Positions 5,375 through 9,004 of a DNA stretch of 32,683 nucleotides are shown here, piece by piece. How positions within the stretch are numbered: position 1 is the stretch's first letter; each line of letters starts with the position of its first letter. The notes beneath the pieces are model-generated. The model was not told the origin of the DNA. It was given only the letters and a program-made list of their open reading frames with translations, and did not search any database. The position numbers were made by a program, and so were the translations under genes. The DNA lies in contig JALEVB010000019.1 in NCBI GenBank assembly GCA_022780745.1, positions 1-32,683 on the forward strand, given 5' to 3'. The stretch is from Erysipelotrichaceae bacterium (GTDB lineage: Bacteria > Bacillota_I > Bacilli_A > Erysipelotrichales > Erysipelotrichaceae).

Positions 5375-7291
5375 ATGAAGCGTTATAGTTATTATAAAGT
5401 AGCTAGTGTTACTAGTGATGTTTATATAGGTGATCCTTTTAAAAATGAACAAGCAATATTAGATGCCTGTAAACAGCTGGATGATGATGTACAGCTGGTG
5501 GTTTTTCCTGAGCTTTGCTTAACTGGTTATACCTGTCAGGATCTTTTTTATGAAAATCTGTTATTAGATAATGCTTTAGCTGCATTGGAAGATATGCTGG
5601 TAAAAATGAAAGAGAATCTGGTAATGGTTGTTTCTTTGCCATTGAGGATAAAGAATAAATTATATAATTGTGCTGCTGTTTGTTTTGATCATGAAGTGTT
5701 GGGTATACAGGCTAAGACTTATATTCCTTCTTATAATGAATTTTATGAGACTAGATGGTTTAGCAGTGGAAAAGGTTTATGTGAGAAGGTTATTATTGCT
5801 GGTAAAGAAGTAGTGGTTTGTAATGATCTTGTCGTTAAAGATCTTACGACTAATGCTTGTATAGGTGTTGAGATATGTGAAGATCTTTGGGTTGCAGATC
5901 CTGTTAGTACTTCATTATGTTTAGCTGGAGCTAATATTATTTGTAATCCTAGTGCTTCTAATGAAGTAATTGCTAAGAGTGCTTATCGTTTGGATCTGGT
6001 TAAGATGCAAAGTGCTAAGAATTATTGTGCTTATATTTATAGTAGTGCTGGTAATGATGAGAGCAGTAGTGATCTGGTATTTAGTGGTCATGATATAATC
6101 TGTGAAAATGGCAGTGTCTTAAATGTTCGTAAGATGAATGATGAGCATAATTTTATCATGGCAGAAATTGATTTGGATCGTCTTACTAATGATCGCTTAC
6201 GTTTTAAGACTAGTTTATGGGAAGATAGAGATGCGACATATGTTACTTTTAGTTCTAGAGCATATGATGATATTGAATTAAGCAGAAAAGTTGATGCTTA
6301 TCCTTTTGTTTTACAGGATGATAAGTTGAGAATTGAAAGATGTCAGGATATTATTAATATTCAGGCTCATGGTTTAGCTACGCGTTTAAAGAAGATCAAT
6401 GGTCAAAATGTGGTTATTGGTATTAGTGGCGGTTTAGATTCGACATTGGCTTTATTGGTGTGTGAGAAGGCTTTTAGATTGAATCATCTGGATCCTAAAG
6501 GTATTCATGCGATTACGATGCCTGGTTTTGGAACGACATCAAGAACAAAGAATAATGCTGATAAATTAATGGAATTGCTTCATGTTTCAAGTGAAGAGAT
6601 ATCGATCGTTGATAGTGCTATTTTGCATCTAAAGGATATTGGTCATGATATTAATATTCATGATATTACTTATGAGAATGCTCAGGCTCGTGAAAGAACA
6701 CAGATCTTAATGGATCTAGCTAATAAATATAATGGTTTTGTGGTTGGTACTGGAGATTTGAGTGAGCTGGCTTTGGGATGGTGTACTTATAATGGGGATC
6801 ATATGAGTATGTATGCTGTGAATGTTTCTGTTCCTAAGACTTTGGTTAGATATATTGTTGAAAGTGAGGCTATTAGTGCTTTAAATAACAATAATAAAGA
6901 ATTGCATGATGTTTTGATCGATATTTGTGATACTCCGGTTTCTCCTGAGTTATTACCTCCTGATGCTAGCGGTAAGATTACTCAAAAAACCGAAGAGGTA
7001 TTGGGTTCATATGATCTGCATGATTTCTTTATGTATTATATGCTGAGATTTCATAAACGTCCTAAAGAGATATATGATCTATGCTGTATCGCTTTTAAGG
7101 ATGTTGATAAAGAGGTTATTAAGAAGGCTATTAATACTTTCTATAATCGTTTCTTTTCGCAGCAGTTCAAGCGTAATTGTATGCCTGATGGTGTAAAGGT
7201 TGGTTCAATCTGTTTTAGTCCTAGAGGTGACTGGCGTATGCCTAGTGATGCTTCTAGAAATATGTGGTTAAATGATTTAAAAGAGATTTAA
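5375..7291 (+). CDS. nadE: Glutamine-dependent NAD(+) synthetase
   Basis: This protein makes NAD+ from deamido-NAD+, ATP and glutamine in the last step of NAD synthesis. It has 638 residues and two domains. The N-terminal nitrilase-like glutaminase domain has the full Glu-Lys-Cys triad at E46 (FPELCLTGY), K114 (QAKTYIP) and C168 (IGVEICEDLW). The C-terminal synthetase domain has the pyrophosphate loop GISGGLDSTLALL and the later STGDLSELALGW-like segment (GTGDLSELALGW). The length agrees with the long glutamine-using class rather than the short ammonia-only enzyme. It is monocistronic, with its own promoter and a bidirectional terminator. Confidence 0.96.
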   Translation: MKRYSYYKVASVTSDVYIGDPFKNEQAILDACKQLDDDVQLVVFPELCLTGYTCQDLFYENLLLDNALAALEDMLVKMKENLVMVVSLPLRIKNKLYNCAAVCFDHEVLGIQAKTYIPSYNEFYETRWFSSGKGLCEKVIIAGKEVVVCNDLVVKDLTTNACIGVEICEDLWVADPVSTSLCLAGANIICNPSASNEVIAKSAYRLDLVKMQSAKNYCAYIYSSAGNDESSSDLVFSGHDIICENGSVLNVRKMNDEHNFIMAEIDLDRLTNDRLRFKTSLWEDRDATYVTFSSRAYDDIELSRKVDAYPFVLQDDKLRIERCQDIINIQAHGLATRLKKINGQNVVIGISGGLDSTLALLVCEKAFRLNHLDPKGIHAITMPGFGTTSRTKNNADKLMELLHVSSEEISIVDSAILHLKDIGHDINIHDITYENAQARERTQILMDLANKYNGFVVGTGDLSELALGWCTYNGDHMSMYAVNVSVPKTLVRYIVESEAISALNNNNKELHDVLIDICDTPVSPELLPPDASGKITQKTEEVLGSYDLHDFFMYYMLRFHKRPKEIYDLCCIAFKDVDKEVIKKAINTFYNRFFSQQFKRNCMPDGVKVGSICFSPRGDWRMPSDASRNMWLNDLKEI

Positions 7292-7317
7292 AAAAGCTGT
7301 TATAAACAGCTTTTTTT
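7290..7317. terminator. Bidirectional terminator between nadE and the GNAT gene
   Basis: AAAAAAGCTGTT and AACAGCTTTTTT form a 12-bp perfect stem with the 3-base loop ATA. U-runs are produced on both strands, so the element can end nadE and also the convergent minus-strand pair. It overlaps both stop codons. Confidence 0.9.
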
Positions 7318-7716
7318 CATCATGATATGGGGACAGTGTTCATCCATATATTCATCACCATAGGCTAGATATCCTAGTTTTTCATAGAAGCCTTTGGCTT
7401 GTAACTGAGCGCTTAGATATATCGTATCTGTTTGTTTAAAGCCTATTTCTTCTAAGGTTTTCATGACTTTTGATGCTAAATGGTTTTTACGATAGGTTTG
7501 TAATACACATATTCTTCCAATATGATATTCACCATTTTCTTGATATATTCTACCTGTTGCAATAGGTTTATCATTATCATATAAAATAACATGGGTAGCT
7601 ATCTTATCTGTTTCATCTAATTCAGTACTAAAGCCTTGTTCATCCATGAAGACTTGTTTTCTTACAGCATAGGCATCATTAAAGTAAATGTCAGTATTGC
7701 CATTAATTATTTTCAT
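7300..7716 (-). CDS. GNAT family N-acetyltransferase
   Basis: A 138-residue single-domain acetyltransferase. It opens with the pattern AVRKQVFMDEQGFSTELD followed by DKIATHVILY, which is characteristic of the YjcF/ElaA branch of the GNAT superfamily. The acetyl-CoA binding region is IGRICVLQTYRKNHLASKVM (an R-x-x-x-x-A variant of the Q/RxxGxG/A motif), and the C-terminal AKGFYEKLGYLAYGDEYMDE is typical. The acceptor substrate is unknown. The gene overlaps the upstream membrane protein gene by 14 bases and is co-transcribed with it. The ATG at 7716 has AGGATGAT just upstream. Confidence 0.9.
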   Translation of the reverse strand: MKIINGNTDIYFNDAYAVRKQVFMDEQGFSTELDETDKIATHVILYDNDKPIATGRIYQENGEYHIGRICVLQTYRKNHLASKVMKTLEEIGFKQTDTIYLSAQLQAKGFYEKLGYLAYGDEYMDEHCPHIMMKKSCL

Positions 7717-8968
7717 ATATCATCCTCTTGACTACGATCGTGTCTTTTCTTAGGTATTCTTCGTTTAAATATTTTAAATAAGAACCTGGTATTATAATAC
7801 CACTAATGTTAATTAAGTTTAATTCTTTACATCTAATTAAGTGGTCTGTTAATAGTACACAGTTGGTAGTAGCAACAAAATAGGTTTTGAATTTACCGTT
7901 GGTAAATTTATACATTTTACAATGGGTTGCTTTATATACTCTTGATGCATAATCGTTGATATTTGTGGCATCATTTCCATTGTCTATTGCTTCTTTTGCT
8001 TCGCATGACCATGGGGTTGTCCTGTTAAGTAATTCTTTGATTCTTTTGTCTAGAATATTTTTTTCTTTATCATTTAGTTTTAAGCCATAGCCAATGATTC
8101 TTTTATGATCGCTCATTGCCTGTTTTAAAAAGAGATTACGATCTGCTTCAATCAGTACGCCATCGCCAAAGGTTCCCATTAGTTTACGATGTTTGGGATC
8201 ATGACAGCCATAGGAGTAGATAGTGCCGTTATAGGCTATATCAATGTGTCCTAGGCTTTCTGGACCTTTTTCTTTTAGGTAGATGTATACTTCGATGTCT
8301 AGTGGTTTATCTTTACTAGGATCATTGGTGTATTCTAATTTACTGATATTATTGAAGTAGTCTAATGATAGATAGAATGATTTGGGTATTAGAATATCAA
8401 TGATTATTGGTAATGATATGGCTTTATGGTATTTAATGGTATCTTGAACATGATTTGGTAAGATATCGATAATATTGTTAATTATATATACTAAGCCATA
8501 GATGACTAGATATATGCCTATGATATAGGAAAATAGTTTGAATTTGCCACTAGGTTCAAATAATAAAATAATGAATATGATAATATTGATCACTGCTGAT
8601 AAAAAATTAGTAATGGTTCCATGTATCATATCGATCTTGCAGCGATAGCCATCAATTAGCTTTACAATGGCACGTAATAAGATCCAATAGGCAATGATAA
8701 TGTGGATCATGGTTTCAAAGTTTTGTTTACTAATGACAATAGCTAGTAAGATGATGATATCAAATATCAGAAAGAGAATATTAAGCTTTTGTTGATGTTT
8801 GAAGATATTTAGTATATGGCTTATATTGAAGAAGACCATGGTTATGATGGCTATATAATAGATAATATTCCAGATATATTCATAGCTGATGAAAAATAGT
8901 ATTCCTAAGATAGTTAATAGAATACCGGTGAAGATGTTGGTTGTTTGGTTTAATATTGTTTGTTTCAT
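7703..8968 (-). CDS. HdeD-like (DUF308-type) membrane domain fused to a probable permuted papain-like hydrolase domain
   Basis: The protein has 421 residues. The first ~170 consist of about six hydrophobic segments resembling the HdeD/DUF308 membrane family. The rest is soluble. Two parts of it stand out: LGHIDIAYNGTIYSYGCHD with H241, and TTNCVLLTDHLI with C370. A His-containing GH(I/V)xI strand preceding a buried NC(V/T) helix is the order seen in circularly permuted papain-like folds (NlpC/P60 relatives), so H241 and C370 are candidate catalytic residues. Substrate is unknown. I start at ATG 8968, not the in-frame TTG at 9004, because that TTG is part of a good -35 box and no ribosome binding site precedes either codon. 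Domain naming is from pattern recognition and has not been tested by a search. Confidence 0.7.
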   Translation of the reverse strand: MKQTILNQTTNIFTGILLTILGILFFISYEYIWNIIYYIAIITMVFFNISHILNIFKHQQKLNILFLIFDIIILLAIVISKQNFETMIHIIIAYWILLRAIVKLIDGYRCKIDMIHGTITNFLSAVINIIIFIILLFEPSGKFKLFSYIIGIYLVIYGLVYIINNIIDILPNHVQDTIKYHKAISLPIIIDILIPKSFYLSLDYFNNISKLEYTNDPSKDKPLDIEVYIYLKEKGPESLGHIDIAYNGTIYSYGCHDPKHRKLMGTFGDGVLIEADRNLFLKQAMSDHKRIIGYGLKLNDKEKNILDKRIKELLNRTTPWSCEAKEAIDNGNDATNINDYASRVYKATHCKMYKFTNGKFKTYFVATTNCVLLTDHLIRCKELNLINISGIIIPGSYLKYLNEEYLRKDTIVVKRMIYENN

Positions 8969-8975
8969 ATGCTTA

Positions 8976-9004
8976 ATAGTAGTTTTATATATATTATTAG
9001 TCAA
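8976..9004 (-). promoter_or_regulatory. Candidate promoter for the HdeD-papain/GNAT pair
   Basis: On the minus strand TTGACT (9004-8999) and TACTAT (8981-8976) are separated by 17 bases. Transcription would start at about 8969, at or next to the ATG at 8968, giving a nearly leaderless mRNA. This agrees with the missing Shine-Dalgarno sequence. Confidence 0.45.

Follow-up and report, generated by a model that had tools for sequence, protein, structure and literature searches.

The window, a 32,683-nucleotide stretch of contig JALEVB010000019.1 from an Erysipelotrichaceae bacterium, encodes a 421-residue protein, here called P0001, in which a DUF308/HdeD-type membrane part precedes a predicted permuted papain-like domain. 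The first-pass annotation had placed this gene at 7703–8968. Checking of the codons confirmed these coordinates on the minus strand, with the ATG at 8966–8968 and the stop at 7703–7705. An alternative TTG start at 9004 is possible, but the alignments with homologues begin at the ATG. The gene is present as a single copy in the window's genome. The features of the locus are as follows.

7703–8968, minus strand: coding sequence of P0001, 421 residues, DUF308/HdeD-type membrane part and predicted permuted papain-like domain (open reading frame call, homologues)
8459–8968, minus strand: residues 1–170, six predicted transmembrane helices, DUF308/HdeD-like (model helices, DUF308 matches, charge pattern)
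8348–8413, minus strand: residues 186–207, short hydrophobic helix in which Pro187 and Pro195 are conserved (helix 188–207 of the model)
7706–8350, minus strand: residues 207–421, predicted permuted NlpC/P60 (papain-like) domain (domain model, fold matches)
8246–8248, minus strand: codon of His241, predicted general base (kept in 106/107 members)
8198–8200, minus strand: codon of Asp257, which may be the third polar residue that orients the histidine (kept in 106/107 members)
7880–7882, minus strand: codon of Tyr363, seven residues before the cysteine, matching the NlpC/P60 signature tyrosine (Tyr in 99/107, Phe in 8/107)
7859–7861, minus strand: codon of Cys370, predicted nucleophile, after the invariant Asn369 (kept in 107/107 members)
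7300–7716, minus strand: overlapping downstream neighbour, a GNAT acetyltransferase of 138 residues (Acetyltransf_10, E 2.4e-14)
7290–7316, minus strand: terminator-like hairpin 3' of the GNAT gene (one found, 0.6 expected in shuffles)

The GNAT open reading frame overlaps the 3' end of the P0001 gene by 14 bases, and an SD-like GAGGAT for the GNAT gene lies inside the P0001 gene. Co-transcription of the two genes in the window's genome appears plausible from the sequence.

Predicted fold and conserved residues of the C-terminal domain

Pfam returned only a sub-threshold DUF308 match for P0001 (E 6.6e-4, 20.3 bits against a cut-off of 25); Lnb_N, C92 and LRAT gave nothing at E ≤ 10. NCBIfam and PDB sequence searches with this protein also returned nothing. 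Across 66 family members, DUF308 was matched in 57 at E ≤ 1 (best 1e-16) and HdeD (NCBIfam PRK10209) in 22 (best 1.6e-7). HdeD is a six-helix protein that is not known to carry a papain-like domain. The family shares with HdeD/DUF308 proteins the six membrane helices and the DUF308 matches, whereas its papain-like domain is additional.

For the domain itself, sequence profiles returned no convincing solved relative, the best rows being membrane or repeat proteins at E 0.018–0.021; as a control, a C92 profile recovered 2if6 at 6e-16. Peptidase_C92 was absent among the 25 listed of the 45 Pfam families that match the 66 members. A profile comparison against 20 C92 proteins gave a weak result, with a probability of 36% and an alignment that included the histidine region but not the cysteine.

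Structure prediction and fold searching, which the first-pass annotation had proposed as a check, ranked permuted papain-type enzymes highest. The AlphaFold2 model of the whole protein, built with 60 sequences, reached a pLDDT of 89.1 and a pTM of 0.84, and that of residues 207–421 alone reached 90.8 and 0.89. Membrane-length helices span residues 2–27, 29–58, 61–79, 81–112, 118–137 and 143–167 of the predicted model, in which His241 is the first residue of strand 241–246 and Cys370 the second residue of helix 369–378. Aligned with VIA-align, the domain-only model matched the Bacillus cereus structure 3kw0 (Z 9.7, 150 residues aligned, rmsd 3.7), YiiX (2if6; Z 8.3, 132 aligned, rmsd 3.2) and, third, the MARTX RID domain (Z 5.6), with an HRASLS3/LRAT chimera (4q95) at Z 2.4; the first unrelated row stood at Z 2.9, with only 14 of 1000 chains at Z 2 or above. 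With the full-length model, 3kw0 again ranked first (Z 9.4) and 2if6 scored 8.0. With Foldseek alone, neither model had a PDB match at E ≤ 0.001, and the best row in its viral set was a PPPDE-domain protein (probability 0.94, E 0.032). The YiiX scores of 8.0–8.3 are weak evidence alone because, by the aligner's own caveat, top Z values of 7 to 8 often occur when no true match exists. Nevertheless, given the gap to unrelated rows and the agreement with the residue order, we accept the fold assignment, and residues 207–421 very likely adopt a permuted NlpC/P60 fold.

Conservation was assessed in 107 distinct family proteins from two alignments (A1 and A3), the window's protein included. Open reading frames of fewer than 330 residues were left out (the broken genes of L084 and L114 and fragments in L070). 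Alignment A1 used 65 of 69 open reading frames from other genomes, with the contig-edge genes of L088, L051, L066 and L074 also left out, and A3 used 59 of 79, each of at least 330 residues. Gly240, Gly254, Gly270, Asn369, Cys370, Pro394 and Gly395 are invariant, and Pro195, like His241 and Asp257, is kept in all but one protein. Since His241 and Cys370 are retained in 106 and 107 of the 107 proteins, their presence is not due to chance. The first-pass annotation had noted H241 in a GHIDIA strand and C370 in a TTNC helix, and both motifs were confirmed in P0001; none of the 107 proteins lacks both residues, and one lacks the histidine only. Its broader description, an HdeD-like membrane part followed by a permuted papain-like domain with histidine before cysteine, is borne out by the Pfam and NCBIfam matches, the fold matches and this conservation. 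It had left the pairing without a name, and the order can be named as that of permuted NlpC/P60 proteins (LRAT, YiiX, PPPDE, Lnb).

In an Erysipelothrix MAG (L117, 3542–4828), leucine replaces His241 and the cysteine is kept; this homologue is a possible pseudo-enzyme, judged by its residues. It is the kind of member that would be expected if the family were non-catalytic and kept its fold for binding, a reading that we regard as very unlikely because both residues are kept in 106 of the 107 proteins.

The closest fold matches, YiiX and BcPPNE (Peptidase_C92, PF05708), share the residue order of the family domain but differ around the cysteine. Twenty aligned C92 proteins have a Tyr-Cys-Ser motif, with the tyrosine directly before the cysteine in at least 90% of them, whereas the family has Asn-Cys in 107 of 107; their invariant tyrosine lies 15 residues before the cysteine, whereas Tyr363 lies seven before. 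According to PMC3142127, the corresponding pairs are Tyr115/Cys128 in YiiX, Tyr127/Cys154 in BcPPNE and Tyr101/Cys108 in PPPDE1, the last with a spacing of seven equal to that of Tyr363/Cys370; the same spacing holds for Tyr154/Cys161 of LRAT, as given in the title of a reference cited there. PPPDE1 has phenylalanine at the position of the third polar residue (PMC3142127). The family resembles LRAT and HRASLS (PLAAT) proteins in its Asn-Cys motif, in the tyrosine seven residues before the cysteine in LRAT, and in being membrane-anchored. However, only Asn-Cys of the LRAT/HRASLS NCEHFV motif is kept, P0001 continuing with Val-Leu-Leu, and most HRASLS proteins have a single membrane helix at the C-terminus, where the family has six at the N-terminus.

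Distribution and gene neighbourhood of the family

The fusion of a DUF308/HdeD part with a papain-like domain defines a genuine family. Of 145 related genomes, 66 gave a match in a protein search; one of these (G067, E 0.004, membrane part only) was excluded, leaving 65, the window's own included. In a phylum-wide domain-profile search, 19 of 295 genomes matched and 18 carried a full-length frame, the match in the remaining genome (G245) lying in a 103-residue frame. Nineteen of the 21 matches in this search fell in frames of 409–468 residues, which is the fusion length, and the other two frames had 62 and 103 residues. Comparison of 65/145 related genomes with 19/295 across the phylum indicates that the family is common in genomes close to the genus of the window, whereas its occurrence elsewhere is patchy. 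Among named genomes, an alignment-based scan confirmed 157 relatives out of 158 candidate stretches, and the best 80 of the 157 were kept. These 80 loci belong mainly to Erysipelotrichaceae (including Holdemania), Oscillospiraceae and other Clostridia, Aerococcaceae, Granulicatella and Streptococcus, the last accounting for 26. Among the literature matches listed, no title or abstract opening described a DUF308/HdeD–papain fusion, and many of the matches to DUF308 at the start of a word are probably to DUF3080–3089.

Several individual loci were also recorded. A family gene (L218, 5743–7056) is carried by a 286-kb replicon recorded as a Monoglobus plasmid (NZ_OY725741.1), where its product is annotated only as 'DUF308 domain-containing'. 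Two loci carry two family copies in tandem and in the same orientation (L057, 4046–6928; L059, 3955–6598). In an Erysipelothrix MAG, the gene is split into two open reading frames (L084, 1754–3040; the same gene in L114).

Two other affiliations were considered and rejected. Assignment as a phage protein was set aside, as the best PHROGs match had an E value of 0.0092 and occurred in 1 of 60 members, and of the 191 candidate stretches in a viral-contig scan, none was confirmed. One record filed as 'Bacteriophage sp.' (MT835480.1; L217, 5353–6681) carries the full-length fusion. The gene is adjoined there by an open reading frame that we take to be FolC-like and by two that are presumably of the DHHW type; because the full-length fusion sits beside the FolC-like frame, this record looks bacterial. 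Assignment as a defence-system protein was likewise dropped, P0001 having no PADLOC match.

The first-pass annotation had suggested that P0001 and the GNAT enzyme act on the same amine-containing compound, and had proposed surveying whether this neighbour is conserved. Such a peptidase or amidase, sharing one amine compound with the acetyltransferase, would suit the overlapping genes and the terminator-like hairpin of the window's genome, as well as the adjacency of a GNAT of the same type in four genera, downstream in the window, L105 and L138 and upstream in L116. However, these are the only 4 of 124 distinct loci, some of them cut by contig ends, that have such a gene on the same strand at a distance of less than 100 bp; it is non-adjacent in the other 120. 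Within the genus of the window, none of the loci L100–L104 has it, including all four informative ones, whose downstream sequence exceeds 3 kb (L101, which ends 0.2 kb after the gene, was not counted). In three Holdemania loci (L106, L107 and L110), a GNAT gene of this type lies about 5 kb downstream. The survey thus leaves the shared amine substrate unsupported, and we consider this reading extremely improbable.

No family-wide operon partner was found among the 40 largest neighbour clusters listed, the largest of which, an ABC-transporter-like group, occurs in 17 loci at mixed positions. In 12 loci (L042, L046, L048, L052, L053, L056–L061 and L063), the gene lies downstream of a run that we take to be RsgA-, Rpe- and ThiN-like, preceded in 10 of the 12 by what is presumably a protein-kinase gene.

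Membrane side, candidate chemistry and significance

In both alignments, the mean number of lysines and arginines is 1.8–5.0 at the N-terminus, in loops 2–3 and 4–5 and after helix 6, and 0.6–0.8 in the remaining loops. This charge pattern would place the N-terminus inside, and with six helices the C-terminal domain would then also lie inside. The topology depends on the hydrophobic segment at residues 186–207. Its median charge-free run in the 107 members is 13 residues, against 19–23 for TM1–TM6, and runs of at least 17 residues occur there in 29 of 107 members, compared with 67–99 of 107 at TM1–TM6. To judge from these runs, the helix probably lies at the inner membrane surface. It could form a seventh membrane span in some members, in which case the domain would be outside. 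Cysteine content was also compared. Non-catalytic cysteines per 100 residues of the domain number 1.37 in 50 non-Streptococcus members, where soluble open reading frames have 1.65 (n = 100) and lipoproteins 0.65 (n = 14), and 1.11 in 10 Streptococcus members, where the values are 0.68 (n = 37) and 0.00 (n = 4); the comparison rests on small samples of 4 Streptococcus and 14 other lipoproteins. Taken as sequence-based indications, these data make it likely that the papain-like domain faces the cytosol.

The permuted relatives LRAT, HRASLS, YiiX, Tox-Act1 and Lnb act on or bind acyl lipids, and by analogy we lean towards an acyl-lipid as the substrate of the family enzyme. LRAT and HRASLS act on phospholipid acyl groups, and LRAT forms an acyl-thioester, HRASLS enzymes being described likewise (PMC4624172). 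A fatty acid was found with YiiX, and three permuted members have hydrophobic pockets (PMC3142127); Tox-Act1 cleaves PG and PE, and DUF4105 is the domain of Lnb (PMC12994826). Our best guess for the activity, again by analogy, is a thiol acyltransferase or acyl hydrolase. Building on the predicted model, we favour, with some reserve, a membrane-anchored permuted NlpC/P60 thiol enzyme that acts on an acyl-lipid at the cytosolic side. The six helices would hold the C-terminal domain against the inner membrane face, with the Pro-kinked hydrophobic helix 186–207 lying at the surface beside it. His241 would deprotonate Cys370, whose thiolate would attack a substrate that contains lipid, at an acyl ester or amide, and so form an acyl-enzyme. 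The acyl group would then pass to water or to a second acceptor, so that the protein would behave as a phospholipase A or a transacylase, as in PLAAT/LRAT and Lnb. Of this picture, the gene, its conservation, the residue order and the resemblance of the predicted model to known folds were observed, whereas we infer the cytosolic side, the lipid substrate and the acyl-enzyme chemistry alike.

A related possibility, which we rate as unlikely, is a one-piece Bacillota lipoprotein N-acyltransferase resembling Lnb or LnsAB, with the membrane part in the role of LnsB and the papain-like domain outside. Lnb, the Bacteroides lipoprotein N-acyltransferase (PF13387 Lnb_N, formerly DUF4105), is a permuted NlpC/P60 protein with histidine then cysteine, as in the family (PMC12994826), and DUF4105 has a branch rich in Firmicutes (PMC12994826). 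The available text of PMC10318531 groups DUF4105 as papain-like and leaves DUF308 unmentioned. The similarity to Lnb_N is weak but repeated. At E ≤ 1, 13 of 66 members show it, with a best value of 7.3e-5, and in L068 it spans profile positions 6–126 of 175. A single member (G133) attains the Pfam cut-off once its frame neighbours are counted, although the same protein scored 21.0 against 22.2 in another search. In a phylum survey, Lnb_N matched in 7 of 295 genomes at E ≤ 0.01; two of the seven matches lie in the fusion family (G133 and G045) and one in a protein that weakly matches C92 (G130). We treat this similarity as a lead, not as membership, because shortened domains matched in 3 of 60 cases at E ≤ 10 and P0001 has no match.

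The staphylococcal LnsAB system provides a further precedent, as LnsA is an NlpC/P60 protein whose best matches are permuted and which is paired with a membrane protein (PMC7387801), and helix 186–207 crossing the membrane in some members would allow an outside domain. However, LnsAB comprises two separate genes, LnsB is remotely CPBP-like and not DUF308, and LnsA has a predicted signal peptide; the Lnb domain is periplasmic according to Pfam, whereas the family has a six-helix N-terminal part and a probably cytosolic domain. Moreover, Lit itself acylates the lipoprotein amine (PMC12345273), and it is present in 122 of the 145 related genomes, the window's own included: 59 of the 65 that carry the family and 63 of the 80 others. 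Three Lit-negative genomes in this count were assigned by elimination (G141, G143 and G144), and of the six family-positive genomes without Lit, three are 72–79% complete (G004, G053 and G126). Since Lit and the family do not exclude each other, the family does not appear to substitute for Lit, and there is no sign of replacement. This co-occurrence, together with sequence features that favour the cytosol (charge pattern and cysteine content), argues against lipoprotein N-acylation of the Lnb type.

A probable location at the inner face would also suit a RID- or PPPDE-like protein modifier, which would remove or add fatty acyl groups, or cleave peptide or isopeptide bonds, on membrane-associated proteins. 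The RID domain and a PPPDE protein are among the fold matches, and enzymes of both folds work on proteins as well, but among the clusters listed the family shares no neighbouring gene for a substrate or partner, and the Lnb_N similarity points to lipid acyl transfer instead. We consider a protein modifier unlikely.

What is new here is the architecture, an HdeD-type anchor joined to a permuted NlpC/P60 domain; the kind of enzyme is already known and its chemistry is not new. Returning to the favoured acyl-lipid enzyme, we suggest more tentatively that these proteins may form an undescribed class of inner-leaflet phospholipid transacylases or phospholipases in Bacillota, from gut Erysipelotrichaceae to oral streptococci, which would be a one-polypeptide bacterial counterpart of vertebrate PLAAT. 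The 'DUF308 domain-containing' label, seen in one annotated record, hides a likely catalytic domain in many gut and oral Bacillota. Should the family move acyl groups in the inner leaflet, it would represent a lipid-remodelling enzyme not recognised so far and would place an Lnb/LRAT-type fold on the other side of the membrane. Some HdeD-type membrane proteins would thereby gain a testable function, and the conserved Cys-His pair is well suited to a mutational test.
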